Shown: positions 1-63,944 of the stretch, piece by piece | Layout: each line of letters starts with the position of its first letter | How positions within the stretch are numbered: the stretch's first letter is position 1 | NCBI RefSeq assembly: GCF_037975245.1 | Contig: NC_092580.1 | Location: 30,310,001 to 30,374,000, forward strand | Direction of reading: 5' to 3' | Length of the DNA: 64,000 nucleotides | From: Apostichopus japonicus | Lineage: Eukaryota > Echinodermata > Holothuroidea > Aspidochirotida > Stichopodidae | Translations under genes and position numbers: made by a program | The notes under the pieces: generated by a model | The model's input: only the letters and a program-made list of their open reading frames with translations | What the model was told of the DNA's origin: nothing | Databases searched by the model: none

Positions 1-1020
1 AGAAACTTTCTCTTGACCTAAATATATTCTATCGACGCTTACGTCTCCGTGAATTTTTTGCCGACGAAAATGGCAATAACACCACGCAACAAACCAACGA
101 CTTGCATTCCAATTTTCAGCCAAAAAGCTCGTGAAATCCGCCCAAGGCCCATTGTGCACCTCTTGAATCATTTATTTCGGCAATTGAAGAGGATGTAAAA
201 ACACAGACCTCTGCCCCAGACTTTCGTGACAATCTCAACAAAACTGAGAGACAGGCTATCCATGAACTCCGGAAGCGCGATGACATTGTCATCAAGCCAG
301 CCGACAAGGGTTCTGCAATTGTCGCTATGGGCAAACAATTCTACAGAGAGGAAGCCAACTGACTACTCGGCAACCCTCAACACTACATACTCCTGGATTC
401 TGATCCTACTCAAGAAATCACACAGTCTCTAACGGTTCCATTGACCGCAAGTTATGCCAAAACCTCCTTGAAAACGACCCAAAACCTGGTAGCCTAAAAT
501 TCACAAAGAAGGCAATCCCGGGACGCCCATAATATCGGGTAATGGTACAGCGACTGAAAAAAATCCAAATTCGTGGATCTTCTCATCCAACCTCTTGTTT
601 CGGCCCTACCGTTTCTGGACATGGCGTTCACTTCCTGGACACCACTGTGACCCTACACAAAAAAAAAAATCTGGGAACTTAACCTAAAGACCACGGCACC
701 ATTCCGTTTAAACATCAGAAACGATTTGCCGTCCCAGATAAACCAAAACAATTCCTTTGCAATTACGACGGAATCGGATTAAAATAATCCGAATTTCTAA
801 AACTTCTGCTCAATTCAGCAGAAATCAGTAAGTCGCATTGACAACCATGCCGACAATCTTCTCTATAAAATAGTTTCAATTCCTGCTACTCCTTGTCACT
901 TTCCATGATCATGCACTGAAGAAGAGCTAGTTTTGCTCGAAAGCTCTGCAAAAACCAAACATCGGCTGTTTTACTTCCAATTACTTACCTAATTTAATTA
1001 TTGTATCTCACTCGAGATCC
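1..1020 (+). mobile_element. Decayed Penelope-like element remnant, 5' part cut by window edge
   Basis: Plus-strand translation in broken frames gives the N-terminal PLE block: FYRRLRLREFFADENG at the start, then a region ending IKPADKGSAIVAMG from base 291, then PKIHKEGNPGTPIISGNG from about 494. The same two motifs occur in the better-preserved PLE at 13986-16155. The RT catalytic core is missing. Frames shift repeatedly, and a TGA near 359 replaces the AGA seen in the 52.6-53.9 kb copy. A hammerhead-like hairpin follows at 916-942. It is a dead, internally deleted copy. Confidence 0.8.
916..942 (+). other. Hammerhead-like hairpin at PLE 3' end
   Basis: CTGAAGA, one extra A, a GAGC/GCTC stem with a 7-nt loop, then GAAA. 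The order (CUGANGA, helix II, GAAA) resembles the hammerhead ribozyme core known from PLE terminal repeats. The extra A between CUGANGA and the stem is non-canonical, so catalysis is not assured. Confidence 0.5.
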
Positions 1021-1052
1021 AGCCTTTCTCTAAATGCAGCATAGTTGTTCAA

Positions 1053-1059
<7 letters not shown>

Positions 1060-1102
<43 letters not shown>

Positions 1103-1112
1103 ATATATATAT
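1060..1112. repeat. (TA)n microsatellite
   Basis: Nearly pure TA dinucleotide tract. It marks the left side of the palindrome insertion. In the paired block a single TA tract at 53906-53955 occupies this site with no palindrome beside it. Confidence 0.95.
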
Positions 1113-1192
1113 ATTATTAGAGAAAACCAGAGAAATAAGATATGACTCATAATTGACAAATAAGGAGTAAGTTTTAGAAAATATATTGGAAT

Positions 1193-1219
1193 TTTCGGTC
1201 CCCCTGGGACCTTCGTCAG
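1193..1219 (-). other. Hammerhead-like hairpin, left palindrome arm
   Basis: On the minus strand: CTGACGA, extra A, GGTCCC/GGGACC stem with 3-nt loop, GAAA. Mirror copy of 2280-2306. Confidence 0.55.
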
Positions 1220-1359
1220 CAATACTTGGCAGTCGAATGAGAAGTACAAAATGTGACACAATGAAAGTATGACGCTAGATAAGTGTAAGTTGCAATGATG
1301 GAATTAAAACCAAATAAACCATGACTATACAGGAAGCGAATTAAGGAGCAAAGAACGGA

Positions 1360-1728
1360 TTACATATGCTTGTAGAACTGGTAGTTGTTAAGGGGTCCCA
1401 AGTCTTTGTTGAGGCCGGTGATGTGAGACTTAATACGAAAGATCCAATCGATTTCTTTACGTTTACGTTCAGTAGTTGATTTGAAGTTCGAGGCAATTAA
1501 AATACATTTTAGGTTTTTTAGAGAATGACCATGAAGATTGAAATGTTCGGACACTGGGAATCCTGCAAAATTATCACGAATAGATTTTTTGTGATTATTA
1601 AAACGTAAGCGGAATCGGGAGCCTGTTTCACCTACATAATTGCCCTCTTTGCAAAGTACACAATAGAAAATGTAAATAACATTAATAGAATCACAAGAGA
1701 GGGAAGGGGGTCTAAGACTATGCCCCAT
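1360..1728 (-). CDS. GIY-YIG endonuclease domain fragment of PLE (left arm)
   Basis: A 122-codon open frame on the minus strand encodes the C-terminal endonuclease of a Penelope-like element. Visible motifs are NVIYIFYCVLC, then NYVGETGSRFRLRFNNHK (the GIY and YIG equivalents with a conserved Arg and His), then FPVSEHFNLHGHS. No RT is attached, so this is a 3' fragment, not a working element. From the LRPPSLSC motif onward it has the same residues as the plus-strand frame ending at 2139, because both lie in arms of one palindrome. The start codon lies in the spacer side and is probably not a real initiation site. Confidence 0.7.
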   Translation of the reverse strand: MGHSLRPPSLSCDSINVIYIFYCVLCKEGNYVGETGSRFRLRFNNHKKSIRDNFAGFPVSEHFNLHGHSLKNLKCILIASNFKSTTERKRKEIDWIFRIKSHITGLNKDLGPLNNYQFYKHM

Positions 1729-2139
1729 ATGCCAAATATTACCCCAGGCACCGTGGTCAAGATTCCCAATGTTGACTTTAGTCTTAGACCCCCTTCCCTC
1801 TCTTGTGATTCTATTAATGTTATTTACATTTTCTATTGTGTACTTTGCAAAGAGGGCAATTATGTAGGTGAAACAGGCTCCCGATTCCGCTTACGTTTTA
1901 ATAATCACAAAAAATCTATTCGTGATAATTTTGCAGGATTCCCAGTGTCCGAACATTTCAATCTTCATGGTCATTCTCTAAAAAACCTAAAATGTATTTT
2001 AATTGCCTCGAACTTCAAATCAACTACTGAACGTAAACGTAAAGAAATCGATTGGATCTTTCGTATTAAGTCTCACATCACCGGCCTCAACAAAGACTTG
2101 GGACCCCTTAACAACTACCAGTTCTACAAGCATATGTAA
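1720..2139 (+). CDS. GIY-YIG endonuclease domain fragment of PLE (right arm)
   Basis: A 139-codon open frame, the mirror copy of 1360-1728, with an extra N-terminal stretch from the spacer (ITPGTVVKIPNVDF). GIY-YIG-like motifs are NVIYIFYC and NYVGETG, followed by RLRFNNHKKSIRDN. PLE proteins have an RT followed by this endonuclease; only the endonuclease end remains. The stop is 140 bp upstream of the hairpin at 2280-2306. Expression is not indicated by anything in the sequence. Confidence 0.7.
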   Translation: MPHMPNITPGTVVKIPNVDFSLRPPSLSCDSINVIYIFYCVLCKEGNYVGETGSRFRLRFNNHKKSIRDNFAGFPVSEHFNLHGHSLKNLKCILIASNFKSTTERKRKEIDWIFRIKSHITGLNKDLGPLNNYQFYKHM

Positions 2140-2279
2140 TCCGTTCTTTGCTCCTTAATCCGCTTCCTGTAAAGTCATGGTTTATTTGGTTTTAATTCCA
2201 TCATTGCAACTTACACTTATCTAGCGTCATACTTTCATTGTGTCACATTTTGTACTTCTCATTCGACTGCCAAGTATTG

Positions 2280-2306
2280 CTGACGAAGGTCCCAGGGGGA
2301 CCGAAA
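2280..2306 (+). other. Hammerhead-like hairpin, right palindrome arm
   Basis: CTGACGA (2280-2286), extra A, stem GGTCCC (2288-2293) with GGGACC (2297-2302), then GAAA (2303-2306). Same layout as 916-942 but with different stem bases that still pair. Confidence 0.55.
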
Positions 2307-2417
2307 ATTCCAATATATTTTCTAAAACTTACTCCTTATTTGTCAATTATGAGTCATATCTTATTTCTCTGGTTTTCTCTAATAATATTTTCTTTTGGAG
2401 TAAACGTGGATTTTCGT

Positions 2418-2424
<7 letters not shown>

Positions 2425-2454
<30 letters not shown>

Positions 2455-2550
2455 TACACATATATATACACACATATATATACACACATATATATATATA
2501 TAAACACATATATGTACACACATATATATATATACACATATATATTGGCT
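2425..2550. repeat. TA/CA microsatellite
   Basis: Mixed TATA and CACATA repeats on the right of the palindrome. Not present in the paired block. Confidence 0.9.
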
Positions 2551-2739
2551 AGGTGAGACCTGCTCATCATGATATCAGATGAGATTGTTTGTTACGAAAA
2601 TGCCATTTTAATGATATCATCTTACAGTCAGCTGATAAGCTTGCGAAATATGATCTAATTGGACATACTGTGTCAGTTCAAAACATCATTATATTGTTTT
2701 ACCTAACTAAGAGAATAGCTGAAATTAGAAGGGTTAGAG

Positions 2740-3316
2740 GCCATGTTTTCTGCTCTTTAAATTTGTAAATAAGAAAAGGGAGAAAGTGAAGAAAGAAGAT
2801 TGATATTATTTGCAGTAACAAATCCAATCATGTATAGAAACAAACTGCCATCAAGGTTGCATATTTCCACTTTCAATGGGCAAATATCTAGTTGTGTGTC
2901 TTACTCACTACTAGTATAACTATTAAGTTATCGTTGTATTAAAACTAGCAGTAATAAATAGGTATAGGCTATATTTTGGCTAAGATATTGTTTTATGTAA
3001 GTTTCAAGTTGTACCAATAATGTGTATACCACAATATTTGATCAGTTGGAATGTATCCAATGAATTCTAAAAGTTCTGAAAATGAGAAGCCTTGTTTTCT
3101 GCGCGTTAAATTTGTACATGAACCAAGAGAGAAAGTGAAAATAGAAGTAGAATGATAGTATCTGTAGTACCAAATCCAATCATGTATAGAAACAACCTGC
3201 CATTAAGGGTGCATATTTCCACTTTCAATGTGCAAATATCTAGTTTTGTGTCTTACTCACTACTAGTATCATCGTTGTATTAAAGCTAGCAGTAATAAAT
3301 AGGCATAGGCTATATC
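2740..3316 (+). repeat. Two direct copies of a ~235-bp dispersed repeat
   Basis: 2740-2975 and 3085-3316 share a long stretch, including CTGCCAT then GCATATTTCCACTTTCAA and ACTCACTACTAGTAT. A third, more diverged copy lies 3' of gene A near 12885-13035. Equivalent copies are near 54105-54680 and 63450-63600. The repeats therefore flank receptor genes in direct orientation. Confidence 0.8.
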
Positions 3317-4660
3317 CAATTGCTATGAGAGTAATGTAGAATTCAACTCAGGTAATGGTGATAACACATTTTGTTGCGACTGCGATGACAGATGTTTTTT
3401 CAAGTAGGCCTATATAGGCTTAACTGATTTGAAACTTCTAATTAAGCTGCTGAAGGTGAAACACGACGGAGTCCTTTTTGTGCTTTCCAAGCAAATGACG
3501 ATGAAGATTAAATGTTTGTGGTAAATGTATATACATCCTTTCTGAGGTTATGAAGTGATGAATTTTAATATTTTATGACAACTTAAAGTATGCAAATGTG
3601 AGTCACCGTATATCAATGAAGACATTTGAGAATTGTAAAAACTTAGAAACAGGGTGTCAATCATTATTAAACGACATACTTCATTGAAAACCTATAACCA
3701 TTGCATTGGGAGGTGGGGTAGAGGGAGGGTGTAGGGGAAAGTTGGAAATTTAAGAGAGGCTCTCTATGTCTTCTTCCATCTTTGTTTTGCAAGCAAGGTG
3801 TATACCTGTGTCCACTTAGATAATCTAATACGTCCATAGAAAATAGTCAGAAAGTACAGAGAAATATATTTTGAGAAGTTCAATCCAAGACCTATCTTCC
3901 AATTACTTGCATCATCAATTTATACACAGTAATAACGGCATCTTAGTTGTTTTTTTACTAAGAGGTACCTTCAATGCAGCAATTTTTCGAAGATCTTTCA
4001 CGAGCTCCAGCTATTGTATAGACTTAAATTGCCATAAAAATGTTCAATAAAATGTTTTACATTAACATGGCTTTGCAGTGTATGTCAGTATTATCATTCA
4101 ATGAGCAGTTATCTAAGGTGGCCGTATGGCTTCATTTGAATATTAACCCCTCCCCAGCAGTCCGGTAACCAGGCCGAGGTCCAGGGGGCATGCTCCTCCA
4201 TTTTCAGACAAGTGCTCTCCCACCACACCACTTAATTTGTCCTACTATCATGTGAACAAAAACTTCACAAGTAACAGCACATGGGTATTGGTGCCCCCCC
4301 CCCCTCAACCCATAAATTGTTGGTGCCCCTCCAACTCGGGGTACCTTCTCCCAAGGGGCCCAAATATTTATGTAAAGCCGCCTCCATACATTGCTGTGTA
4401 ATAAAATTGAGCATGCTGAACAGTAAAGTCGACTGGGCTTTGTCCATATGCATACGTGAAAGACCCAATTTATTTAAGGGGGGGGGGGGGGGTTCAGGGC
4501 TTAAAGTTTTGTGCCCGAATTTTGCCCGAATCCTTGTCCGAAATGTCAAAACTCACAAGACGAGCCGCATGAAACATGCTGATGCTGGTTGCGAGTATGA
4601 TTTCATTGAAATTTTATTGAAAATAGAATAGAATAGCACCAGGGCGGATACTTCCTTTTT
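3317..4660. other. No gene recognised
   Basis: Non-coding, AT-rich, with short C and G homopolymer runs near 4294 and 4480. Open frames here are short, and their equivalents in the duplicate (54.7-56.0 kb) differ mainly by homopolymer-length changes. I see no domain. Confidence 0.6.
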
Positions 4661-4663
4661 GAG

Positions 4664-4805
4664 AACGATTCGAGTAATTATCAGGAACGATTCGAGCAAA
4701 TATCGGGAATGATTCGGGCAAGTATCGGGAACGATTCAGACAAGAATTGGAAACGATCTGAGCAAGGATCGGGAAAGTTCGGGCAAGAATCGAAGAAACT
4801 TCGGG
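4664..4805 (+). repeat. 24-bp minisatellite
   Basis: About six degenerate units of the type GAACGATTCGAGCAAATATC plus four bases. Frames through it give repeated Ser/Arg/Ile-rich peptides that are artefacts of the repeat. It is duplicated at about 56036-56178. Confidence 0.8.
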
Positions 4806-5559
4806 CAATCGGCCGTGCATTAAAACCTTCGCGATATATATATTTTTTAATCTTTAAATTGAGTTTCATATTTTGTCCGGAGGATGCCCGAATATTGCAA
4901 CAACTTTTGCCCGAATTTTGAGTCCCTGAAATTGGAGGGGGCAGTCTTTCCACTGTCCCCCGCCTCGTACGTCTATGACTTTGTGCCCTTTGTATCTAGT
5001 AAAGGGCATAACGTATGATTGTACATTATTGGGAAAATGATAGGATTTTTGGTTCCTTGCTGGGAGCAATGGAACCTATGCAGCCATGTTGGCGTGTACG
5101 TGTGGGTTGCGGGTATGGGTGTGTGTGTGAGTCTGTGACGCTTGTTTGGATCCGCAATAACACAACAATGCACAACAATGCATGATGGATGTTGGTCATA
5201 CTTGCTATGTAGATGTATTAAGGTGTGCCCGATCGTTTTTGGTGCTGATCTTGTGAATATTAATGAGTTTAAGGGGTCAGATATAGAAAAGCTTTACATT
5301 GCAATAACTCCGCAACCTTCAGTACGATTGTAGCCAAACTTAGTATACAGCTGTTGGTTAGTAGCTGGAACACAGAGGTTTCAATTGGATGTGACCATCT
5401 GGGCTGGCAAAACAATCCGGGACCCTTTTTGCGTAGGATGGGCCCAATATTTATTTCCACCTCGAATACATTTTGGGACACATTCTTTGGGCCTGAATTT
5501 GTGGTCCAAATATGTTTGAGGTCATTTGGTCCCATAAGTGGGATTATAGTCAAACTTGT

Positions 5560-5613
<54 letters not shown>

Positions 5614-6104
5614 TAACATGCCCCAGAATGCACCATTTGAAATTATCTATTTAATTTTCTCGCGGACAGTTTTAATGACCCGGAACAGCCCTAAACGCAA
5701 GATTGCTAATACTGCTAAAATCTGCTGATAAAAACTCTTGAATTTTTGTGTGAGGTTGAATAATGGTGGGGGTTAAGACACTTTACCCCGACAATTCCCC
5801 GACTGAACCATGTCCCCTTCCCTCACTTGTGCATGCCACTAGTCTATGTACGTATATAATCTCCCCTTCGGTGTTTTAAACGAACCCAGTTTGAAGTGAA
5901 GGATCATGCTATGAGTAATTTATCTGATGAGGGGGAGGGGGAGGGGGGTTGGCGAGAGAGGTATCTCAACTGTCGTATAATTTCAACTATCGTAGACTGC
6001 GTCATGTTTGCAGTTTGAATCCATCCGTAAAATTACATATTAGGAATGTAAACCATCAAAACTATCATAGGATACGCCAGGACTGCGCATTACTTACAAC
6101 GGGG
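4806..6104. other. Non-coding, with (TA)n at 5564-5608
   Basis: No recognisable gene. A (TA)n tract occupies 5564-5608 and is shorter in the duplicate. The stretch after it (CTTAACATGCCCCAGAATGC) recurs in modified form near 18688 and 18836, so it is a dispersed repeat. From about 5755 the sequence also resembles 45640 onward, upstream of gene B. This marks where homology among all three receptor units begins. Confidence 0.6.
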
Positions 6105-6108
6105 TTAA

Positions 6109-6903
6109 AGCAGCATTTTGCGTCCTCGACTATGGTATTTCTCAACCTCACTGACTCCACTATGCCATAACGACATACATAACTAGCTTATCTATTTATA
6201 TTTTACTTCAAATGGTGGCATAAAAGTCGAAAAAATTGCAACTTTCAACTGTGTTGTTCTCCAAGATATTTTCCGTTGGGAACCCAATAAACCTCGCCCA
6301 TAATATGAATATTTAAACACTACGAACGTCATTGACAGATACGTAATATAACACCACGCTTGATTTGTGTACAGTCTATATGGCAGTTGTACCAGGGAGT
6401 TGTACCAACGCAAAGTCTTGAATCTATTTTTAGCAACGGCTCATAACTAAACCTGCATCTCTGATTGGTTGAATTCAAACTAGTGGGTTTGGGAACGGAA
6501 TGCGATTTAATTTTGTATGTGGAATACTCGCTAATTAACGTTTTTGGCAGGGAAAAACTTGGCTAATATCTTAATTTGCTGTTTTGTGATTTGATGTAAG
6601 TAAAAAACTCGATGGACATGTCAAAAAAGTAGAAAACGGCGACCAAACGCAAAATGCTCATGAATAAACATACTATTCACTGATTGGTGGAATTCAAACT
6701 AGTGGATTTGGAGATATGAAAACTTGGTCGAGGACACTTTTACTCGTTATCGATATAAATCGTTAATTACTCGCTAATTAACGCTCTTGGCAGGATGAAA
6801 CTTGGATGGTATCTTAGTTTGCTGTTTTATAATTGATACATGTAAAAAAATCGATGCACAGTTTAAAAAGGTGGAAAAAAGCGACCCAACGCAAAATGCT
6901 GCT
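6109..6903. mobile_element. 795-bp MITE with TTAA target duplication
   Basis: Perfect 15-bp terminal inverted repeats AGCAGCATTTTGCGT / ACGCAAAATGCTGCT, flanked by TTAA at 6105-6108 and 6904-6907. The duplicate block has the empty site with a single TTAA at 57471-57474 and matching flanks, which proves the insertion boundaries. TTAA duplications are typical of piggyBac and Kolobok superfamilies; the AG-starting ends fit Kolobok better (inference). It carries no transposase. An internal ~34-bp motif around GAATTCAAACTAGTGG occurs twice (6435-6490 and 6677-6710). Confidence 0.92.
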
Positions 6904-6987
6904 TTAAAATACCCAGGAGCGAGATTCTACATTGTCACACCGACGATCATAACAGAAAATAATATTATCTATGCAATACGTTGCAAA

Positions 6988-7145
6988 TGACGTCGAAACA
7001 TATCATTACAAAAGTTTTGTGACCTAAGTGTTTCAGTAATCACTCAGCCAGTATTACGGAACTTCATATATGAGACTGGTGGTATCGTTTAAGATATACG
7101 CATGCGTGCGTATATAGTTATGTAATAAAAACACGATCGTTCAAT
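6988..7145 (+). promoter_or_regulatory. Putative core promoter of receptor gene A
   Basis: TATATAG at 7111-7117 lies about 32 bases upstream of an initiator-like TCAATAG (7141-7147). A CRE-like TGACGTCG lies at 6988-6995. The same arrangement is kept upstream of genes B and C. The first ATG of the signal-peptide exon is about 265 bases further on. Conservation and spacing support a promoter; no expression evidence is available. Confidence 0.5.
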
Positions 7146-7405
7146 AGTGTGAACAACCTACTCCGGTTTCAACTTGGTTATAGCTACAGGTAATACCAGT
7201 ATCGTGCTTCAGTTGTCCTGCATTTCCGTAAAGATATCTGATAACAACAAACCGAACTCTATTGTACATCCGAACCGATGTTCTTTATTCCCAACAATAT
7301 ACATATATAACCTTGTATACTTCGATTGTTAGTTACGACAATCTGCTTCAGTATTTTTTCTGCTATTGGATTTCTCGTTGGAAAGAAAAGGATATACAAC
7401 AAACT

Positions 7406-10400
7406 ATGGCTTTATATACAAATCTGAAAAGTGTCTTCACAGTGCTTTGGAGTATTAACGTTATCGTGGTACTAGGACAGTCGGAACCAGAAACGGAACC
7501 ACCTCCAGTACGTAAGTACGTAGTTCGCTATGTGGCTAATGGGGTCTGCGGTGTTTTGTGAGCAGAGTAAACGTAGTTGACGATGTTCTTCCCCTGGTTG
7601 GTTTAGTGGGGGGGGGGGCAGGGATGCTTAAATGACTGAGGGTGAAGTCCACTTCCGAACTGCTTCCTTAAATGATAATATTGTAATTAAATTTCGTTAT
7701 GTTCACTCTCATATTATTCTTAGATCTTCCAACATACGGGCTCGATTTGGTTACGAAGGCGTGGCATGGGGGAAGAGGAGAAGGGGGGGGGGGTGGGTGG
7801 GGATTATGACTGTGGTAGATCCATTCATTTAATATTGTAACAAGGAACCGCGAAGTTAACCATATGTAAGGTCGTACCACGTAAATCCTGTCATTTCAAA
7901 ACAGTTCCAAGTACGTATTAGATCTACTTAGGCCTATGGGTTGATATAGTCTAAAGAGTGCAGTGCGTTTGACAATGGAAATGCAACTATTAGTATTAAT
8001 AAACAAATATGCTAACACTGTTAACACAATATGTCAGAAATAAAGTCAACATTACTACGAATAAAATATCGGAATGGAATAAGAAATGAATTACGGGGTA
8101 AAACAACATAAGAAAGATTTAGAAATTTCTTCTCCTGTGAAAACAATCAGTTTCCTGTCATATGTCAAACATCAGTATACATCGCCATCAGTTGTTGTAC
8201 CAAAACAAATTATGGATATGTCAGAAAACTTAAAACAAGAAGGCAATTCACGGATTTGCATATCTCATTGCCAGCAAACACTGATTTCAGTTGAACATGT
8301 TTAATATTAGCTATGCAATCTGGCAATCGGAGGAAATTACTACTTGACATTTGCATTATTGTCAACGTAAGTATTCTCTTAGAAGTGAGGATTTATAGTT
8401 ATTCTTTCTTTTCCATTCACGTTACAGAAACTGTACGGGCTGGGTACTGCACTAGAGATTATGAATGTAGTTCTTCATGTGGTTCTCTGACATCGGTCAC
8501 ATGTTCTTGTCACCCAGCTTGTGAATTATTCCAAGATTGTTGTTACAATACTATCGAAAAAAGTAATCGCTGTTCCAAAGATACCGACACCGAAATATTT
8601 TTGTCTGAAGTTCTTCCCGATATGAGAGATTACTTTCAGTGTGCTACGGATGTTATATCACAGCAAAAATACTGGATGGTGTCTAAATGTCCAGATACAT
8701 GGACGGGGCTTAACGAATGTGACGTCACAGGCGACGACACAGATATCACCGTGGGTAGATTGGAAGATAATTTATCTAGTATTCCAGTTTTATCAAGGAA
8801 AGGACTAACCTACAGAAATTTTTACTGTGCTCTCTGTCATGGAGAGGATTTATCCGACCTTTCACCTTGGTCATTCGAGGCTCAAGATTGTGAAGACACT
8901 GATATTTTTAAAACAGCTACGAACCTGACCGTTAAAGATCAAATCTTTCTACTGAGAGAACACTGTCAAAGCTTGTCCTTCCTTCCACCTTCAGATCATC
9001 CATTTTACGTGTTATCTGTAATACCTTGTTTTGAAATTACCGATGACGTAATCGATACATGTGACGATAACACAGCTAGCGAGGATATCAGACACAAATG
9101 TTCGACCATAGCAGCTCCCATTTCGATTGGAGGGTACTTCAAAAATACCTTCTGTGTTGAATGTTACTATTCTTCTCGTAAATATATCGACTACGAGGTT
9201 TTAGAGTATTGTACAGCTGCATTTGACCGCGAAGAAATATTTCCGCCCGTTTTCGCGGTGCCGTGTCTCTATGACTACGAAACCGGTGAAACCATATGTC
9301 CAACACCTGAACCTCCCCCACCACCTCTCGTACCAATTTCTATAACCTTTAATTTTGGTGGTAATTCTGGTGGTATATCCATCACAAAAAACAATGAAAG
9401 GATCCAAGAAATATCTGTGACTTGTAACGTTGGACAGGTTTTTGATCCACTCGGGGCTTCGTGCAAACTATTAACATGTCCTAGTGGTTACGTTCTGAGA
9501 AGTTCACTATGCGTACAACTGCCAAATATTACTACAAATTCGTCAGAAGAATGTAATCACTATTCTATACATATAAAAGCTGACAACGTGAACTTTATCA
9601 ACAATTCTTGTTTGGAGAACATGGAAACAACTTTTAATTGCCTACCAGCGGATTTGGTATTACTTTTACAAGCAAACATGGAACATTACAATACATCGTG
9701 CAGAATGACGAGCCAAGAACAGGTTGTTTTAGAAGTTGTCACGACTTCTTTAGAAATAATTGGAAGTCTCTTGGCAAAAGCTGGCAGTACATCTTCGCAA
9801 AATTCAGATGCATGCACAAGTTTGAACATTGTGGAGTTTTTGGCGTACTGTCCATCCAAAGTGGAGGACCCGACCCTATATTGTGATTCGGAATGGTACA
9901 GTGAACCCCAGTGGAGTACATCTGGTAATATTACTGCTGGAATTCTTTTCCAAAATTCATCGGAAACTACTGACGTATCTCAAATAAAGATTCGACATTT
10001 ATTTCAATTTTCATCAACACATGGTAACATCTCATCAGAGGACATTTTAGTACAAAGATGCGTATTTAACTCTAGTGAAGTATCATTATGCCCGCTAATT
10101 TCACTCGATTCAAACGTCTTTCTCCCTTTGGAAAACGAGTCCAGTGTTTTAGTATATGCGGCAAATATATCGATTCAATTTACTCCAGATATGTATACAA
10201 TACAACAAAATGGTGACATACAGGTGTGTAACTTTTTGGAAGCCTCTGGCACCGTTGTGACTTATAGGTTTTTGCCTCAATATTCCCAAACACAAAGTAT
10301 CCTGAGCACGGTTGGTATTTCTCTTTCGGTGATTGCACTGCTTTTAACATTGATCAGCTACTCCGTATTTCCTACATTAAGAACCAGACTAGCAAACATT

Positions 10401-12109
10401 ATAATCATGACCCTTTGTGGTTGCCTTGTAGTGGCTCAGTTACTACTTATCTTCGCGGGTATTTCTACTCTTCATGGTACCTTATGTTCAGTAATATCTG
10501 GTCTTGGACATTTCTTTTGGCTGACTGCTTTCTCGTCTAGCTCAATATTAGGTTTTCTTATGAATCAGACTTTTAGTCTCAGAAACCAAACATTAAGAGG
10601 TGTAAAACCTTCCAAAAAATCTATATTTCTTTTCATACTACTGTGTTTTGTTTTGCCAAGTATCATCAGTGGGACATTACTGATTCTTTACTCTGTGGAT
10701 GAAGATGGCATTTACGGAATAGTGTATGGTTCTAACTCAGGATGCTGGATTGGTGGACCAAAGATTAACTTGTATGCCTTTGGTATTCCGGTGGCAGTGA
10801 GTGTTGTCATAAATATGATATTCTTCATACACATAACTGTCTCCATTTGTATTCAAAAGAGGAGTAGTCAGAGAATCAGAAAGACCAAGGAGGAAAGCCA
10901 CTTACGTGAATTGGTGATTTATTCAAAGGTGAGAAGTTTCTTCTTCTCTTTTTCTTCTCTTTTTCTTCTTATAATGTGGCTATGACATCCCATAACCTTA
11001 GCAGGATACGTTAGTATATGATACAATCACAGTTATTCATTAAAAACGCTGTTATGTGGATATTATTTCGAGAAACCGAGTTCATTTATCTTATGGCTCA
11101 TAGTGCCTGTAAATTAGTTTGAACAGTGTGAGAGATGCCGCTGGCTTGTTTTTTAAATTTAGTATTCACTGATGTCAATGATAAGGGCAATCTTACTAGA
11201 ATAACACCAAGCTTTCAAAACCTTCCAGTTCAGGAAAAGTCATGAGATTCCTGACTAGATTTGATATCTGCTTCAATTTTTCTGATACTTAAGCTTGTTC
11301 ATACATCATCAGTTTGACAAAGGTATAAACCGATATAGAAACCTGTTCTTGTTATTCCGAACGTAATTTTGAAATTATTCTTAAAGAGATAGTATGGAGT
11401 TACAAAAAAATAGATGAACGTAAATTACACTTTATGTCATTGGCATTTCCCTCGGTAATTAATAACCAGCAACTTTATATGCGTCGTTAAAGGCTGTGAT
11501 TCTGAGCAACACCTTCCAATTTTGTTTACATTACGGAATCACTAAACATATAATTGCTATATATAAAAAAGTGTGATTCATGAAAGTAGTATCCTTATAA
11601 CTACCTGACTTTGTGAAGAATTGAAAATTCCAATCAAACACACAAGCAAACAACAAGCAAACGCATTAGCCAAAAGAATTTCGGAATCCCATACATATTG
11701 GAAAACAGGAATTGATTGCGTGAAGGTACTTTTCTGTTTTGTACATTAACAATTCAATGATGCCAATTTGGTCACTACTTGAAACATATAGTCTAGTAAT
11801 TCATTAAAATATGCCTTGATTCTATTTTTGATTCTTCAGATTTTCATAATCCTGGGGTTAACCTGGGTCATTGGCTTTGCTGCTGCGTTGTTTGACAAAC
11901 AGTGGCTATGGTATCTCTTTATCATATTCACGTCATTGCAAGGACTTTTCATTTTTCTTGCCTTCACTGTCAAATCCGAAATTTGGGGGATGTGGAGGAA
12001 GCGGCTGGGCATGTCTTCTGACTCGTACATTTCATCTTCACAAGGTGTGTATTATCAACCTGGAAAAGGAAAAAAGACATCTGGATTAACGGCCTCATCA
12101 ACAGTGTAG
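7406..12109 (+). CDS. Receptor A: somatomedin-B domain secretin-fold 7TM GPCR
   Basis: Three coding exons: 7406-7511, 8428-10928 and 11840-12109, giving 958 codons. Exon 1 encodes a signal peptide (MALYTNLKSVFTVLW...) and ends in phase 1 at GTAAGT. Exon 2 starts after TTACAG and completes a Gln codon. A somatomedin-B domain follows at residues 43-84 with C-x5-C-x3-C-x7-C-x-C-x3-C-x5-CC-x9-C spacing, then a long Cys- and N-glycosylation-rich ectodomain with a Pro-rich linker. TM1-TM5 span about 658-840. Exon 3 gives TM6 with the GLTWVIG motif, TM7 with SLQGLFIF, and a Ser-rich tail. Cysteines at the top of TM3 (LCS) and in loop 2 (GCWI) can form the conserved disulfide. No GPS autoproteolysis motif is visible, so it is closer to Methuselah-like receptors than to cleaved adhesion GPCRs. 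It is a plasma-membrane receptor; ligand unknown. Confidence 0.88.
7512..8427 (+). other. Intron 1 of receptor A
   Basis: 916-bp GT-AG intron with a strong GTAAGT donor and TTACAG acceptor. It holds one copy (about 7747-8010) of the unit amplified fourfold in gene B. It also contains an ATG frame from 8313 that runs unspliced into exon 2, including a second GTAAGT at 8367. That frame is intact in A and B but has a 1-base deletion in C. Confidence 0.8.
10929..11839 (+). other. Intron 2 of receptor A
   Basis: 911-bp phase-0 GT-AG intron between intracellular loop 3 and TM6. Donor GTGAG follows AAG; acceptor TTCTTCAG precedes ATTTTCATAATCCTG. The same position is kept in B and C. Confidence 0.85.
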
Positions 12110-13267
12110 CACCTGACACCTGTACTCTGCATTTACATGAGAAGGACAAATACCGGCTGCGTTGCGTTCCTTACACTTCGTTGCGTGTGAAATGTTGTTT
12201 GTGTATATCTGTTTGCTTGTGTATATGTATATTGGCTTTGTTGTACCTGCTCATCATATAGGTCTCGCACCACAATTAATTGTTCCATTGACCTACACAC
12301 TAAACTCGTCACTTTCAAGAGCTGCCTTAGCATAGACAGAAGTTTTCAACTGGTATATTCTACCCACCACACGATAGCTGAAATATTGGCCTATCATGGC
12401 ACTTGCAAACTGCCATATCATGACCGTTTAGATTTTGAGCTAGAAGAGGAGCAAGTTTAAGCATACTGAACCCCAACCCTTCCATCTGCTCGCTCCGAGT
12501 AATATCAACATATAACCAAAGTTTATATGGTTTATATCACCTTCCATCCTCCCTATTTTCACACCATCTGTACTTTAAATTATGCTCTTTCATATAAAGG
12601 GAGAACAAACGATGACAGTAACTGATAACATGCTTAAACAAGCTTTGCCTAAGGTACTTTTACCCCTTTTCTCTGACAATGGTTAAGCTTTCGAGCGGAT
12701 GTATATACACTACTCTAATTGTGGTGCGGTACCTATAATCTGATACAATTGACTATTACGAATATACTATTTTTATAATATCATCTTACTGACAGCTAAT
12801 GGTGACCTTGGACAGACTGTTACAGTTGAAAACACCAGTACATGTTCTACATAACTAACAGAATAGTTGAAAATTAGAATAGTTAGAAGCCCTTACTTTC
12901 TGCTCTTTCAATTTTCTCAAAAAATGGGAGAAAAGAGAAAAGAGTAATCATATTATTTTGTAATACCAAATCCAAATAATATATACAAAAAACCTGCCAT
13001 CAAGGGTGCATATTTCCCACTTTCAATAGGCAGGTCGGTAATTGCTACCAAAAACCACTATCCTTCATTTTTCATTCCTCGGGCTATTAAAACTTATAAT
13101 AAAATTAATTTGTTTTCTTGCCTTTTCTGTACAGCCTGCTGCTTTTCCATGTTTTCTTTCTTTTTAGTTTGACTTGCTAACCTTTTATGTTTTTATTGCC
13201 TTGCGAGCAGTATAGTTTCCTTAGTTAAGGATCAATAGAGTTCTTCTTCAAGTTTATATTATTCTTA
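12110..13267 (+). other. 3' flank of receptor A with a retroelement-like tail
   Basis: No further exon is seen. At 12885-13035 lies a diverged copy of the 2740-3316 repeat. At about 13040-13260 a frame reading FFIPRAIKTYNKIN resembles the C-terminus of LINE proteins, and the stretch ends GATCAATAGAGTTCTTCTTC. The duplicate has AATAAA at this place (63801-63806), a possible polyadenylation signal or LINE tail signal. Both readings are tentative. Confidence 0.45.
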
Positions 13268-13377
13268 CCAGGGAGTTGTTATGGAACATAACAACTCTCC
13301 CTGGTGTATACATATATAGTATGAGTAAGTACAGGGAGTTGCTATGGAATTCTTACTCATACTATATATGTATACAC
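13268..13377. repeat. Two adjacent hairpins, one a perfect 26-bp inverted repeat
   Basis: CCAGGGAGTTGTTATG (13268-13283) faces CATAACAACTCTCCCTGG with a 2-base bulge. Then 13304-13329 is the exact reverse complement of 13352-13377, with a 22-base loop. Part of the first hairpin (CAGGGAGTTG) recurs in that loop. Repeated in the duplicate at 63835-63944. Confidence 0.9.
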
Positions 13378-13812
13378 AACAAGTTTACCGGCAGGAAGCA
13401 TTACTTAGCAAAAGCACTACAACAATACTCTGTCGTAGTTCAAGGTGACTCTATGAATAGCAGGATTCACGGTCAAGGCCAACCACGTACCGTACATTTT
13501 GTATATTTTTACCCTACTATAAGATAACTTACAAAGAAAAGGTGTCCTTGGGAAACTTTTGTTACCTATTTGATGACTTACTGCAATACTATTTTAATCA
13601 GAACTGTGTGTGTACGTATATATGCCTGTGTTTGTGTGAGTGCAAATTATCCATCCAGTCCGCAGTATGCAACTTGTTTTCAATAAAAGAAAAACTAGAA
13701 AAAACACACAAATATATGCGTTAAGTAGGAACCGTTAGGAAAGAGTTATCATAAAGGATGACTTAATATGCATATGGTTCTACATTATAGATATGTTCTA
13801 TATTATAGATAT
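13378..13812. other. No gene recognised
   Basis: Short open frames only, with no domain. Homology with the duplicate block continues to 13433, where the window ends on the other side. Confidence 0.55.
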
Positions 13813-22272: not shown

Positions 22273-25200
22273 ATGCCTATGAAAGGAAAGTTTCCGTTGA
22301 GAAGGACGTTGCGGTATCTTGAAAGGGGAAATGTCCGGTCACACTAATTAGCGTCAACTCACGACAACTCACGACAACTCAAGACAACTCAAGACAACAG
22401 GTTTAAAATAACATCAAATACAATTGATGTTATCAGAGTATATCTGGAAACACGTTTAAAAGTGACTGGAACCAGCGTGCATACAGATCTTTCAAGGGAA
22501 AAAATGTTTTTGTCGTAAAAATCGCCAACTTTTTCCTAACGTTGAATTAGACGACGTGATGCTATTGCGATTGCGCAATGCCATTGGACCGAACCATTAT
22601 AATATGAGTGGGTTTGTGCTAGGTTTGGAAAGTACCTTGTGTACAGTGTCGGTAAGGTGGGTTGTCGTAGTAATAAAGCACCAAAGTATGGTGAATGAAC
22701 TCCAAATCAAATTATTTAATGTTTTAAAATAATGAATACTTCTTATTATTTTTCCATTTTAATTTACATATGTTATTATTAATTTTACAGAGTCTTGCTT
22801 ACTATCATCTTGCCCGGTTTTATTATTCTCTCCGTCAAATCATTGAATGTTTTTAAAATAATGAATACTTATTGTTTTTCCATTGTAATTTACATATGTT
22901 ATTGAAAAATTACACTTACCTGTAGTGTAATGGTTCGGTCCAATGTCATTGCGCAAGCGCAATGGCATCACGTCGTCCAATTCAACGTTAGAAAAAAGTT
23001 GGCGATTTTTACGACAAAAACATTTTTTCCCGTGAAAGATCTGTATGCACGCTGGTTCCAGTCACTTTTAAACGTGTTTCCAGATATACTCTGATAACAT
23101 CAATTGTATTTGATGGTATTTGATGGTATTTTAAACCTGTTGTCTTGAGTTGTCTTGAGTTGTCGTGAGTTGTCGTGAGTTGACGCTAATTAGTGTGACC
23201 CGAAATGTCTACCTAAGAGACACAGTGAAAATTGTAACCATTAACTACAATACGTTAGGAGAAACTCACAAGGGTGCCAGGTATTGATATGTTGTAAAGA
23301 ATTACATACAAACGTGTCACTTGGGTGTGTTTAGGCTAGATCCAAAGGAAAGATTGTTAGCTTTGCCATATAGATCTAGTCTATGCAATCATTGTAATCC
23401 AAATGAATAAGTACTCTAACTTTATGGCCTAGCCTAGGCCTAAGTAAGATAGACACTGGGCCGCTTAGCCTAGGCCTACTTTGTGAGCTAGGTCAACCAA
23501 GTTTGTGAATGATTGCAACTTAATCCATCTAAGAAGAAATGTAGTGGTTGGCCAAATATTTGGTCAGTTTTCTTATGTAGGGCCTACAGCTTAACAGTTT
23601 TATTTGTAAAACACAAACTTGTGGTATGAGTAGGATGGTGACTTCGAAGTTCGGCCACTTAAGACTTAAAACACCCCAAAACTAAATCTTCTGGTCTAAA
23701 TCACCAGAAAATATACTTCATATGGTGGGAGAATTGTGTTTTAGTACAATACACGGCCAAACTTTCTTTCCTGCAAACTGTTTTCACGTTGTTTTCCAAG
23801 AAAATTCTTCGTGATTGTGGAACTGGTATTTCTTGCTAGAGTATTGCGAAGTTCGGACACGCAACCTACAGTGTGGCGCTGGTACAAATTGGTGGCGCTG
23901 TTGCTCTTTCAGTAATTATAACAGACTTCATAGATCTTCGTCATTTTATTGACAAATATGTAAGTAATTTCTTGCACACGGGTCATTTTGGAGAGAAAAT
24001 AACTGTAGCTTCTTACTTTTTGGTGAAATTTGGCTCTTCCTGTAGGTTTTCATGGTGAAAATTGTGTATTTCTTAGGGTGCCCGAACTTCGCAGTATGGC
24101 GAACTTCGCAATACTGACTATACTGTACAACAGCATTCAGAGTAGGCCCTACAAGTAGAATTCCCCTTGGTGTGACCGTATGTGTACTGAATTGTTTTGC
24201 CCTAAATCTTACAGTGCTCTCCAAATCTCCCGAGTAGCTGTACACACAATGAGGCTGTGTAAAAGCACAGGTATCTTTTCTAGAAAATTCAAGAGTACAA
24301 GTACATACAAGGTAGGATATTATTTACAGTAGGCTGCCTGTATTCAGCCAATTTTCTGTTCAATAATGATCCCGGTCATGTAGGTTAAATATGACTGGTG
24401 TAACACGTTTTAACTGACTGTTGCATAAACTCACATATATACGTATGCGTGTATTATTTTTATAAAATTATACTAATATACCTGTACCTCCTACCGAATT
24501 AAGATTATTTATCTTTATACAAACATGCTTTTCTCTTTCAAAAACTTGATATTCCAACATTGTCAAGGGTATCTTTCTTATTTTGTGACAAGAATGTCTA
24601 TATTTTTTCCCAATTCAAAGAGATTTTAACAAATATAGCAATATACTGTGCACAATTACAAGACTGTGAAATTGAAATTGCTAAGTTGCAGTCTTACACA
24701 ATACACTGTAGTTAAGGCTACGTTGAACAGTACTTAATTAGGCTTGACATACATACATGATGATCCCAATGTATTCCTAACGTTGTAGTAAACTTGTATA
24801 AACAGCCCATTTGATGCTGGAAGATATATCTTGATAATTTTGCCAAATTTACAAATAATTTACACAACACTGGGAGCATCTATTCATGATTTGGGGATGC
24901 ACATAAAGTGTCTGTCACAGTGTTTTAAGGTATGTGACAACGTACATGTATGTGTTAATGAGCAAATTCAACTTTAAATATTAGGCCATTGAAGCGCAAA
25001 CTAACATACAGTAGAAATGAATAATGGATACATTTCGATCACTCCACAAACAGCTTTCAATTAAAGGCATTGAAGACTCTGAAAAGTTAACTTTCCGTTG
25101 CGTGCAAGTGAAGATTTCTGCTTGTCGCTACAAAATGCAGACAGTAATGAAACGTGATACCTTGTTATCTTTAGCTGGACCTGAGATAATCCATCGCTGT

Positions 25201-28200
25201 ATCGTTTGTACACTGTGCTGTGGGTATTGACCGCAGCTGTATGTACTGACTGTACACTAGTGTCTAACTACCGACGGTAGCAAGCTGTGTGTGTATTTTC
25301 TGGGATCGATGGTGGTGTCTAACACTTCGGTTACACCTCATTTGAAACTAGGTTAGATTATCAGCAATAAGCATGAGACATTTCTTTTCTTTGTGTGCGA
25401 GTCTTCACACCCTTTAAGTATAAAGATCGAAGAAAGAATTTGGAAATTCCCTTTCCTGCCACATTCTGCCTCAGATTAAGGGCTTTTATACCTGGCTATG
25501 TAGAAATGCAAAGGTACCGTGAAAAATCACGGTTTGGATCTCATACGTAGATCTAGCTAAGCTGACGGAGTACAGCAGTCTGAAGCATATGTCCCTAGGT
25601 TTTAGTCCAGCCTGATCCTATGATTCTTGAGTCTTTCAAAAAATTTGTGTATAATATTCATACTAATGCTGAATAGTATTTCTGAGATTAGGTAATGTTA
25701 ATTAAGGTAATTGATTTTTCTTTCTTTTTTTGTCTCCTCTACAGGGATTTTGTCTTTTACAATTTACCACAGTTGCAGTACAAGAACCATAATGTTCAGA
25801 TGCAAACATTCAAGAACCTCACACCATCACCTTTTATTCGCTGTTTCTTAAGTAAGAACGAAACATTCAAATTCTTTCCTCTTTCGTAACTTTAATTTGT
25901 TCTGTAAATATCTATATATATGTTGTTGTCTAGCTATATGTAGTAGTAGATCTCACTTTTGGATGGAACCAAAATTGTGGTGAATGGAGAAATAGTGTTG
26001 CAGGTTCCCTTAATTTGCAAACAAAATGAAACATATAATGTTAATCCATTTTCCACTTTAATGTTAAAAACTATGAAACATTGATCATCACAAGCTAAAA
26101 TAGTTGATGTATAAAATAAATTCTTATAACTCTAATTCAAAGTATGATACTCTGATAACAATCCAGTCTTCATTTTTGGACTTTCTTTGGTAACTTGCCT
26201 GAGAGCAGAATACCTATGAAGGCTAAGGTAGATCTACTTTTACTGTATGCATTCCGAATAGTGTGTGTGTTTTTGTATGTCCAAGCTTGTAAACACTTTC
26301 TCTGAATCTCAGTACAGATGAAAAGTTTAGTAAAATATAATATTTCATAAAATGCAGCTAGGACATGTAACTGTACATGCCATACCTAAAAGGGATGGGT
26401 TAATATTCATTTATTTTGTAGTAAACAGTGGTTAAATGTGTAATAATGGTCGGTAATTGTAATATAGTCTATTCTAACCCCTAACCGTTTGAACTCAATC
26501 CCATGCCCTCTCATAATGTAGAGAGTAGAACAATTCAACTTGTGTTTTAGTTCATGTTGTTACATTTAATTACCACCGGTCTAAATGTTATCACTTAGAC
26601 ACATCATTATGCTTCCTATCTGTTATCAAATGATTTATTTTTCATAACAGATGCTTTGCTATCAAACACAAGCTGTTTTCTATCAAGAGACTTCAAAAGT
26701 CAAAATAGGAAAAGTTTGTTGTGATCTGCTATAAACACTTATTGATCAAGTAACATTTAAGTAATGATTTTAGAATGCATTATGGCATTAAACTAACTTG
26801 TAACTAAGATCAATACATAGAGAGATTATAAAATCATAGTCTTCAATCTGCAGACAAGAGTATTGTGTTTGATAAGATTTTCACTGTCAAGGTTCATTTG
26901 TTTTAAATGTGTGAATCCTGTCCATCTTTTGCTTGACAAGTTGACAGTATCATGGGTATTGCCCAGGTTACAGAAAGTGCCCAAAAATGTTCAAGAAACC
27001 GCAATGTTGGTTTCCACTGCTTTCAATATGTGCTGAGATGTTGCCTCAATATGTGCCTCAAAGAACAGTTTCATCACCTCTAAGTAATACAACACCAAAA
27101 ATATAAAAGGCAATGCTTGAGAAGTTGAGTACAGCACCTTAATGTGAGAACTAGAATTGAGAACTGGTGCTAAATGAACATAACTGGTGCTAGATTAATA
27201 AAATTGGTGATAGATGAATATAACTGGTGCTACAGTAGATGAATATAACTAGTGGGAGATGAATATAATTGGTGATAGATGAATATAACTGGTGGTAGAT
27301 GAATATAACTGGTGATAGATGAATATAGCTGGTGCTAGATGAATATAAATGGTGATAGATGAACATAACTGGTGCTAGATGAATATAACTGGTGCTAGAT
27401 GAATATAACTGGTGCTAGATTAATATAACTGGTGCTAGATGAATATAACTGGTGCTAGATGAATATAACTGGTGCTAAATGAATATAACTGGTGCTAGAT
27501 GAATATAACTGGTGATAGATGAATATAACTGGTGATAGATGAATATCACTGGTGATAGATGAATATAACTGGTGATAGATGAATATAACTGGTGATAGAT
27601 GAATATAACTGGTGCTAGATAAACATAACTGGTGCTAGATGAATACAACTGGTGATAGATGAATATAACTGGTGATAGATGAATATAACTGGTGGTAGAT
27701 TAATATTACTGGTGATAGATGAACATAACTGGTGATAGAGAATATAACTGGTGCTAATTGAATGTAACTGGCGCTAGATGAATATAACTGGTGATAGATG
27801 AATAAAACTGGTGATAGATGAACATCACTGGTAATAGATGAATATAACTAAAATGAGTTTTACAGGTTAATAGCCCTGTATACACAATAAGTAATCTTTG
27901 TACAGTTTTCCTTCTGGAATAACCACTTGCTCATTTCTGTACAGCAGACACCTAGACCAACTAACCCCATATTCAGTACAAGCTTATTCAAAATCTGTTG
28001 AAATGTTTTGAGAAGCTCTTTTTTCTGTCCAAGATAAACAGTACACATCTGAAGTTTCTGATAATCTGGGAAACTTATTAAATATTTGCACATTATGACG
28101 TGGAGTGTTGCACTCATCAACATTCCTCATTTCAGGCCTGAATAAGTTAACCCCTAAATACAAGCCCACATATATCATTTAAATAATGAGATGTTCCTCC

Positions 28201-29979
28201 TTTTTTTTACATGAATATTTCCAAAAATTGCCTTAGACCACAAAGCTGTGTTCAGTGTCCTTGAAATGAAGGTTGTAAAAACAAAGTAATAACATAACAT
28301 TAAATTAGGCAGTCACTCCCTCTACGTCATCAAATGTGCATAATTAGGGAATGTTTATTCATAAATCAGACTAGAAATTAAGAAAAGATTTGACAAAAGA
28401 ATGGTCAATCTTTGATGGATTTTGATGGGAGATGCAGCTATTTACATGATTTTGAATGTCTATTAGAGGGATTTAGGATAATGCTGTTCATAGGTGTCTG
28501 GAGACCTTAACTGACTATTGCACTCTTTTTTTTTTATTGAGTAACTCATACAGAATGGAACATTTTGCCACAACATATCAGGACTGCATCTTCTGTGGAC
28601 AATTTTAAAACCAAACTGAAAACTCATCTCTTTACCCATTAATTCATTGTCTATATATGTTAGTGCTTTTTTATCCATGGTTATTGCCTTTTGTGTGCTA
28701 TTTTACTTTTTATCATTCGGTCATATGCTTCTTTAGCTGTGTGTTTGACTTGTATTCTTTATGTATTTTTTGACCTTTTTATTTGTAAAGCGCCCTGAGA
28801 CTTCTGTTACGGGCGCTTAATAAGAACTGTTTATTATTATTATTATTATTAACTCTTCAACTTACTGTTGGGTGGAGAATTCATGTTGATTCTTGAACAG
28901 TTTATGATATATATATTTATTTTTTTATATTTCAGATGATGGTGATGAGGTGCTTATAGATATTGACAGTAAATCCAATACATCCATTTTAGAACATGTT
29001 AAGAAACTTTTAGGAAAATCAGAGTGAGTCATATAACTTTTCAAAATCTGTTTTTTACAATATGATTTATGATGTGTCCTTTTTTAGTATTTCTATAGTG
29101 GAACCTTAGCCAGCTCCTTTAAAATTTGAAAATGAAATGTTTTCTGAAGCATCTTGTTTGCATTTGCAAAATAAATGGTCTCAGGCCTCATAAGTATTAG
29201 ATTGTTTAAATGTATCTATTTATATTTAGAAGCTGTCAAAAAGGGGGCGGGGGGTGGGGGGGGGGTAGTCAGCTGCCTCTACCCCCTTCCTATGCATATT
29301 GTACAGCTTTATCAAAGGCATGCACCAAGTTTTCAATATGCCAAGTAAGGAAGTAACCTTTTCCATACAGACCTATGTTACTTCGACCAAATTTGTATCT
29401 TTAACTTTGGACATAAATTGTCATTGTTCCCAAAGAACTGACAGAGCCAGAAACCACCATGAAGACCTGTAACCTATACTTTAGATGTAGCATGCCCGGT
29501 ATGCACATATGGCCACTTAGTGTGAGCTATACACTTAGATGTAGCATTCCCCATATTGCTGGTTAGTGTGTAAAGTAACTGCCTTCAATCCCAATAGTTT
29601 GAGACAAAGTGAAATATATTCTTGTTATCAAATGAACTAACGACACATTGTCAACTAATCAAAGCCCTCCTGGTGTACCAGATATCTAGGCCACTTGTCT
29701 ACAAATTTGATAAATAAACCTTGGTCAAATTTCTTAACTTCTTGCAGAGAGATTCTGTCTGCAGAAAGGAAAGCTAGGGAGAAAAAGACAAATCCAGCTA
29801 ATTTCGGAAGGGAGTTTGCCAGGGAGTGTATTTGCCAGGTTCCAGGACAAGTACCGTGTCCATCTGTCGTGCCTCTACCCGAAGAGCTAAGAGGAAAGAA
29901 TATCGATTACAGAACTCTATTGCTTAAAGCCGCCCGTGGAAGAGACCCTAATGTTCCAGATGAAGAGGAGGATGATTAG
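22273..29979 (+). CDS. MRPS25: Mitochondrial ribosomal protein mS25, exon 1 split by a transposon
   Basis: Nuclear gene for a mitoribosomal small-subunit protein of the L51/S25/CI-B8 thioredoxin-like fold. Coding pieces: 22273-22335 and 23210-23280 (one original exon), 25745-25851, 28936-29023, 29748-29979. Phases agree at every GT-AG junction (2, 1, 2), and without the insertion they total 561 bases, 186 residues; the human protein is about 173. Diagnostic blocks are [69 protein letters not shown], and [20 protein letters not shown] then PLPEELRGK. The tail is acidic (DEEEDD). Exon 1 carries an 866-bp DNA transposon after codon 21, so read straight through it would stop at 22345. This is either a broken allele or a gene that splices the insert out. 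Start chosen by the family N-terminus. Confidence 0.92.
22336..23201. mobile_element. 866-bp foldback DNA transposon inside MRPS25 exon 1
   Basis: Long terminal inverted repeats (about 22336-22599 and 22929-23201, ~265-273 bp) begin CGGTCACACTAATTAGCGTC and pair with the right end at CTAATTAGTGTGACCC. The 8-bp target duplication GAAATGTC lies at 22328-22335 and 23202-23209. Each arm starts with tandem ACAACTCACG/ACAACTCAAG decamers. The ~330-bp centre has an internal near-duplicate (22718-22790 and 22843-22915) and no transposase. The 8-bp duplication fits hAT-like or P-like transposases; the ends do not match the CAG-type hAT elements elsewhere in the window, so the superfamily is open. Confidence 0.93.
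23281..25744 (+). other. MRPS25: MRPS25 intron 1
   Basis: GT-AG intron (GTATTG donor, CTCTACAG acceptor). It holds several AGGCCTA motifs at 23430-23590, a MITE-like element at 23840-24115, and otherwise unremarkable AT-rich sequence. The 68-codon frame at 25024 matches no mS25 region. Confidence 0.8.
23840..24115. mobile_element. 276-bp MITE-like element
   Basis: Perfect 16-bp inverted repeats AGTATTGCGAAGTTCG (23840-23855) and CGAACTTCGCAATACT (24100-24115). A second inner copy of the right end motif lies at 24080-24098. No clear target duplication is seen. Confidence 0.7.
27163..27849 (+). repeat. 20-bp minisatellite, about 34 units
   Basis: Unit ATGAATATAACTGGTGATAG with recurring variants (GGTGCTAG, GGTGGTAG, AACATAAC, ATTAATAT). 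GGTGCT-type units cluster in the middle (about 27360-27500) and GGTGAT-type units around them. The unit is 20 bases, not a multiple of three, and frames contain stops, so it is non-coding. Confidence 0.95.
28545..28858 (+). mobile_element. 3' end of a CR1/L2/Jockey-type LINE
   Basis: A frame reads [20 protein letters not shown] then LKTHLFTH and a stop, the usual C-terminus of such LINE proteins. The 3' UTR ends TGTAAAGCGCCCTGAGAC with a hairpin-forming GGGCGCTTAATAA and a (TTA)n tail at 28834-28850. Severely 5'-truncated. Confidence 0.8.
29024..29747 (+). other. MRPS25: MRPS25 intron 3
   Basis: 724-bp GT-AG intron; donor GTGAGT, acceptor CTTGCAG. A G-rich run lies at 29243-29267. No inserted gene. 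Confidence 0.8.
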
Positions 29980-45560: not shown

Positions 45561-45561
45561 A

Positions 45562-53880: not shown

Positions 53881-53902
53881 ATGCAGCATAGTTGTTCAAC
53901 AG

Positions 53903-53905
<3 letters not shown>

Positions 53906-53955
<50 letters not shown>
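53906..53955. repeat. (TA)n microsatellite (empty site of the palindrome)
   Basis: Single TA tract joining the two flanks that lie either side of the palindrome region in copy 1. Confidence 0.9.
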
Positions 53956-53956
<1 letters not shown>

Positions 53957-53957
53957 T

Positions 53958-56935: not shown

Positions 56936-56979
<44 letters not shown>

Positions 56980-63834: not shown

Positions 63835-63944
63835 CCAGGGAGTTGTTATGGAACATAACAACTCTCCCTGGTGTATACATATATAGTATGAGTAAGAACA
63901 GGGAGTTGCTATGGAATTCTTACTCATACTATATATGTATACAC
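63835..63944. repeat. Nested hairpins, copy of 13268-13377
   Basis: 63871-63896 and 63919-63944 are exact 26-base inverted copies; the bulged 5' hairpin precedes them. Confidence 0.9.

Follow-up and report, generated by a model that had tools for sequence, protein, structure and literature searches.

A foldback transposon has very probably inactivated one of four tandem copies of the mitoribosomal protein gene mS25 (MRPS25) in Apostichopus japonicus, with the other three copies sufficing and the interrupted one left as a fresh pseudogene. The interrupted copy, c1, lies in the window, by which we mean the whole 64,000-nucleotide stretch analysed (C20:30310001-30374000), while the intact copies c2-c4 were found further along the same chromosome. 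Coordinates of all relevant features are collected in Table 1.

The insertion in mS25 copy c1

A sequence-only reading of this DNA had placed a foldback transposon with an 8-bp target duplication inside exon 1 of MRPS25; the coordinates were confirmed, and the corresponding site in c2 is empty. Translation bears out that the mS25 N-terminus halts at 22335 and is picked up again at 23210 past the insert. The frame runs through 21 codons, enters the insert with RSH and meets the in-frame TAA at 22345, where an unspliced transcript had indeed been expected to stop. The 8 bases GAAATGTC stand on both sides of the 866-bp element, just as described, and the downstream exons, which had been called intact and in phase, keep their phase, have GT/AG boundaries and end in a stop codon. 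The best protein match of c1 is the annotated A. japonicus protein P0001, which is unbroken at the insertion point. A search of viral contigs found no mS25 relatives. Intron 2 of c1 holds a 20-bp minisatellite of approximately 34 copies (27162-27849).

Table 1. Features of the interrupted mS25 copy, its insert and the tandem array (positions refer to the window unless preceded by C20)
Feature	Position	Strand	Remarks
Tandem unit 1, part	1..13433	.	two long stretches, 1113-2596 and 6105-6903, lacking in unit 2
mS25 c1 exon 1, 5′ part	22273..22335	+	translation; alignment with 12 mS25 proteins
Left target-site duplication GAAATGTC	22328..22335	+	empty site in c2
Nonautonomous foldback element, 866 bp, ends C-GGTCACAC...GTGTGACC-C	22336..23201	+	
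Left inverted arm, 263 nt	22337..22599	+	
In-frame TAA met by unspliced c1 transcript	22345..22347	+	translation
Left-arm 10-bp tandem units, 4.4 copies	22355..22398	+	
Middle domain	22600..22927	.	imperfect direct repeat 22731-22777 / 22857-22903
Right inverted arm, 273 nt	22928..23200	-	
Right-arm 10-bp tandem units, 4.4 copies	23139..23182	-	
Right target-site duplication GAAATGTC	23202..23209	+	empty site in c2
mS25 c1 exon 1, 3′ part	23210..23280	+	23 residues given, then GT donor
mS25 c1 exon 2	25745..25851	+	
mS25 c1 exon 3	28936..29023	+	
mS25 c1 exon 4 with stop codon	29748..29979	+	
Tandem unit 2, part	52861..64000	.	its mS25 is c2
mS25 c1	C20:30332273-30339976		exon 1 split in two pieces
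mS25 c2	C20:30383110-30391799		past window end; 50.8 kb downstream of c1
mS25 c3	C20:30451869-30458761		
mS25 c4	C20:30586469-30593314		

The inverted arms, put at about 270 bp by the earlier reading, measure 263 and 273 nt and share 93.8% identity with indels counted; the transposon end lies one base beyond the symmetric arms (C-GGTCAC...GTGACC-C). When the region is folded in silico, pairing between the two arms prevails, with a predicted -538 kcal/mol for 1018 nt. A search of the window for the 24-base arm end, tolerating 3 mismatches at most, hit two places, both belonging to this element, against a mean of 0 in 100 shuffles, and no second copy of the element was found within the window. 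No Pfam match was obtained for 22466-22729, the longest ORF overlapping the middle domain, and the single Rfam match on 22000-23600 (22.9 bits) was far below its gathering score of 48. The arm end was not found in the viral and prokaryotic collections. Long terminal inverted repeats, tandem sub-repeats in the arms and a target duplication of fixed length are all present, and by these sequence features we class the element as a foldback-type nonautonomous DNA transposon, which is a structural class.

Four tandem copies of mS25

The assembly searched comprises 671,581,487 bases in 35 contigs. Protein P0001 gave 17 exon matches, every one of them on C20 (19/19 candidates scored), which form four complete exon sets, and no mS25 was found outside C20 in the assembly searched. 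The genome search for a second MRPS25 copy, proposed in the sequence-only reading, thus returned three further copies, c2-c4, all intact: exon 1 is uninterrupted, the GT/AG boundaries match and the reading frames are full-length. Only c1 carries the insert. The product of both c2 and c3 is exactly P0001, and that of c4 departs from it at residue 171. Where c1 is interrupted, c2 has the exact empty site AAGGGGAAATGTCTACCTAAG, with the same bases in c3 and c4, and in the c1/c2 blast alignment the blocks on either side of the insert overlap by exactly the 8 duplicated bases.

The mS25 gene is single in humans. The sequence-only reading implied the breakage of a single core gene, a view that does not stand with four exon sets on C20, three of them uninterrupted. 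The puzzle of a broken essential gene is gone because the genome search finds intact copies. Among the three alternatives offered for the broken core gene, a compensated copy is upheld by c2-c4, and a new intron is disfavoured by weak splice sites. Among the best-ranked literature matches, none dealt with the copy number of mS25 in sea cucumbers.

Self-comparison showed that positions 1-13433 recur at 52861-64000, so that one period of a tandem duplication fits within the window. The c1/c2 region consists of collinear blocks, the mS25 loci follow one another on C20 at 30.33-30.59 Mb, and further partial copies of the tandem units exist. Spacings between successive copies are unequal (50.8 kb for c1-c2, 68.8 kb for c2-c3 and 134.6 kb for c3-c4). 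Over 6.0-7.4 kb of aligned locus, c1 diverges from c2, c3 and c4 by 4.4, 4.8 and 4.4%, with dS of 0.061-0.070, and c2-c4 diverge among themselves by 3.2-3.8%.

These values bear on whether c1 and c2 could be the two haplotypes of a single locus that the assembler set in tandem, the insert marking one allele. The flanks 1-13433 and 52861-64000 differ by 1.84% (204/11098 aligned bases), near the 1.59% heterozygosity of A. japonicus (PMC5638244), but we hold this explanation to be unlikely: the c1 locus is far from c2-c4 in both divergence and dS, and the unequal spacings and further partial unit copies fit a real tandem duplication. Excerpts of PMC10344927 describe a published A. japonicus assembly, made from HiFi reads with hifiasm, whose contigs total 671.63 Mb and which matches the one searched in size. 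Treatment of the flanks as alleles was dropped, the mS25 locus itself being more divergent. The array could in part be an assembly effect, yet all six pairwise divergences (3.2-4.8%) exceed the heterozygosity of 1.59%.

Other features of the window

The segmental array that holds mS25 (C20:30332273-30593314) also includes adhesion-GPCR-like genes. Three of these lie in tandem in the window (8427-12106, 48807-52233 and 58994-62673), with more matches past it. Between the first and third gene the main exon shows dN of 0.027 and dS of 0.035, which amounts to fast protein change. Exon 8427-10931 matches A. japonicus protein P0121 at 833/835 residues, and both mismatches are terminal residues, at the edges of the stretch. 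A different stichopodid as the source, suggested by the c1 protein departing from P0001, was rejected on this match and on P0001 being the product of c2.

Two long stretches are present in unit 1 only. One is a 799-bp insertion (6105-6903) with TTAA bounds and inverted ends AGCAGCATTTTGCG, whose site in unit 2 is empty. The other is the 1484-bp stretch 1113-2596, lacking in unit 2 at 53960; here two perfectly matching inverted 610-nt arms around a 58-nt loop (1111-2388) reflect either a genuine inverted duplication or a hairpin artefact of assembly. A run of 5000 N (C20:30305001-30310000) lies directly left of the window. At 43695-45592 lies a second foldback-like element, in which 15-bp units (CCGGACAAATACCCC) form inverted arrays beside TA repeats, and on the minus strand at 14041-16181 an RVT_1 match, together with a GIY-YIG match just under its cut-off, is read as a Penelope-like element.

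Age of the insertion and possible constraint on c1

The insert is identical over 866/866 bases to a copy at C20:17167745-17168610, 13 Mb away, and 0 differences in 866 give an upper 95% bound of approximately 0.35%. Because the element is identical throughout to another copy and the mS25 loci are 3-5% apart, the insertion is far younger than the mS25 duplications.

Across 186 codons, c1 and c2 differ synonymously at 7 and nonsynonymously at 5 (dN 0.0115, dS 0.0606); for codons 1-180 the counts are 7 and 3, respectively. With c1 modelled simply as unconstrained over its whole branch, P for counts this low was 0.066 with the tail counted (5/12) and 0.020 with the tail left out (3/10). This is suggestive, not strong, of constraint on c1 until recently, which would fit a fresh insertion and equally a copy still in use. 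Cysteines 137, 139 and 147 are retained in c1 and, in the alignment made here, correspond to C139, C141 and C149 of human mS25, which excerpts of PMC11791143 give as iron-sulphur ligands. At residue 60, 11/11 other species in the alignment have P, the intact copies Q and c1 H; having changed in both lineages, this residue does not set the broken copy apart. Like several relatives, c1 retains A at residue 171.

An insertion with full identity to another copy is very young and may therefore still segregate, and heterozygosity in the species is high (PMC5638244). Both would suit c1 as a null allele tolerated only through heterozygosity, but with c2-c4 intact on this assembled chromosome heterozygosity is unneeded, and we regard this as very unlikely. 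Heterozygosity may be an added factor; the three intact copies are a sufficient explanation for tolerance.

Candidate splice sites around the insert

Were the element a new intron, cryptic splice sites near its ends would remove it and c1 would still make a slightly altered mS25. The arms would fold as a long hairpin bringing the element ends together, and excerpts of PMC9860276 report elements with terminal inverted repeats and target duplications that serve as introns, some adding codons (introners). We combined 6 GT, from the start codon to the stop codon region, with 37 AG up to the 3′ part of exon 1; 16/222 GT-AG pairs were in frame and open, their donors at 22333 and 22338 (left end) and 22314 (exon 1) pairing with AG in the right arm or exon. 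Scored with position weights, however, the best three donors reached -0.8, -2.0 and -3.0 vs. 0.4, 0.6 and 2.6 for the own donors of c1, and the four acceptors in the 16 pairs only -4.6 to -7.4 vs. 2.9, 5.2 and 12.3 (own sites of the last intron taken at 29024 and 29748). The exact mS25 protein was restored by 0/16 pairs, and three intact mS25 copies take away the selective need for an intron. We give such an intron even less credence; if true, it would be intron gain from a DNA transposon in an animal, caught at its very start. Least credible is a retained role of c1 transcripts other than making mS25, such as silencing of the transposon family by arm-arm dsRNA, for although the arm-arm stem dominates folding, any transcribed foldback copy would give dsRNA and c1 is not singled out.

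The element family in the genome

The foldback element inserted in c1 belongs to a family with members elsewhere in the A. japonicus genome. With up to 3 mismatches allowed, the 24-base arm end was found at 187 places in the assembly, and at 0 in the control. Among the 40/159 candidates scored, at least 10 full-length places show 97-100% identity, that of the window included, at least one more, at 98%, is missing its final bases, and many others vary in length. Compared with six other copies (L003-L008), the insert shows 1-5 mismatches and 0-10 gap positions. With the copy 13 Mb away identical to the insert over all 866 bases, the family has moved recently.

Target duplications were examined at 32 loci with paired ends and were exact at 22 (8 bp at 20 loci, 9 bp at the other 2), had one mismatch at 3 and were absent at 7, the last being counted against the preferred explanation. 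All 32 have the asymmetric end bases C...C (G...G if reversed). The 32 include two pairs, L038/L039 and L059/L060, with flanks alike within each pair, which look like mutual duplicates. The single-end loci L028-L033 were left out of the count, as the same places are entered as the longer loci L059-L064.

Taking the best 100 of 187 and 100 of 117 arm-end places, we found no transposase, whether of Mutator/Phantom or of P type (THAP), among the ORFs of ten long paired-end loci; Pfam on 5 ORFs from these gave one weak RVT_1 match, under its cut-off. An 8-bp duplication, a feature of the hAT superfamily, flanks the element. Ends of hAT elements start with CA, and hAT-type ends are absent here, the element ends being CGGTCAC / GGGTCAC. 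Reverse-transcriptase remnants, kin to the Penelope-like element of the window, were detected in 7/10 long loci (L059-L064 and L068, on C17, C17, C2, C5, C14, C7 and C8). Five of the seven are flanked by exact 8-9 bp target duplications of their own, so that a composite of foldback and reverse-transcriptase remnant seems to have moved as one unit; foldback relatives with retrotransposon remnants are mildly notable.

Comparison with known systems

Sea-urchin TU elements have 8-bp duplications and 15-bp outer repeats. By description they too are echinoderm foldbacks, and the units are 10 bp in the mS25 element and 15 bp in the separate foldback-like element of the window; sea urchin is named among foldback hosts in excerpts of PMC4079207. 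Most foldbacks are assigned there and in excerpts of PMC3169594 to Mutator, with exceptions such as Galileo of the P superfamily. As far as the same excerpts describe them, Tetris of D. virilis (PMC4079207) and Tm1 of root-knot nematodes (PMC3169594) resemble our element in long arms with tandem repeats, a noncoding middle and 8-10 bp duplications. Yet the arm unit of Tetris is approximately 220 bp vs. 10 bp here, and Tm1 includes copies with a Phantom/Mutator-like transposase, whereas none was found for the mS25 element among the loci examined.

Introners, in the excerpts of PMC9860276, are like the mS25 insert in being nonautonomous, with terminal inverted repeats and target duplications inside a coding exon, but the mS25 insert has just weak candidate splice sites. 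As in pseudogenisation within tandem arrays, one of four similar genes is interrupted here and the rest are intact; in this case the gene encodes a mitoribosomal protein.

Probable mechanism and meaning of the loss

The mechanism is ordinary: a transposon knocking out one member of a tandem gene array. The element would have inserted by cut-and-paste transposition, with the transposase supplied in trans. Transcripts of c1 would then end at codon 25 and yield no mS25, while c2-c4 would be expressed and make it, so that the animal would be unharmed. Copy c1 would have just become a pseudogene, its decay not yet begun.

Excerpts of two studies indicate what loss of mS25 costs human cells: knockout lines could be generated and showed among the greatest loss of the mitoribosomal small subunit (PMC11251090), and depletion lowers mitochondrial translation by approximately 60% (PMC11791143). 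In A. japonicus the loss through the insertion is probably harmless because three unbroken mS25 copies remain downstream on C20. Copies elsewhere can in this way account for an 'essential' gene that is broken in one part of an assembly.

The fourfold tandem amplification of a mitoribosomal protein gene in this A. japonicus assembly is mildly notable. In a farmed sea cucumber, the locus offers a clean, young insertion from a foldback family of recent activity, with filled and empty site on one chromosome. Copy c1 would show a pseudogene at the onset of its formation or, with lower probability, the start of an intron gain.
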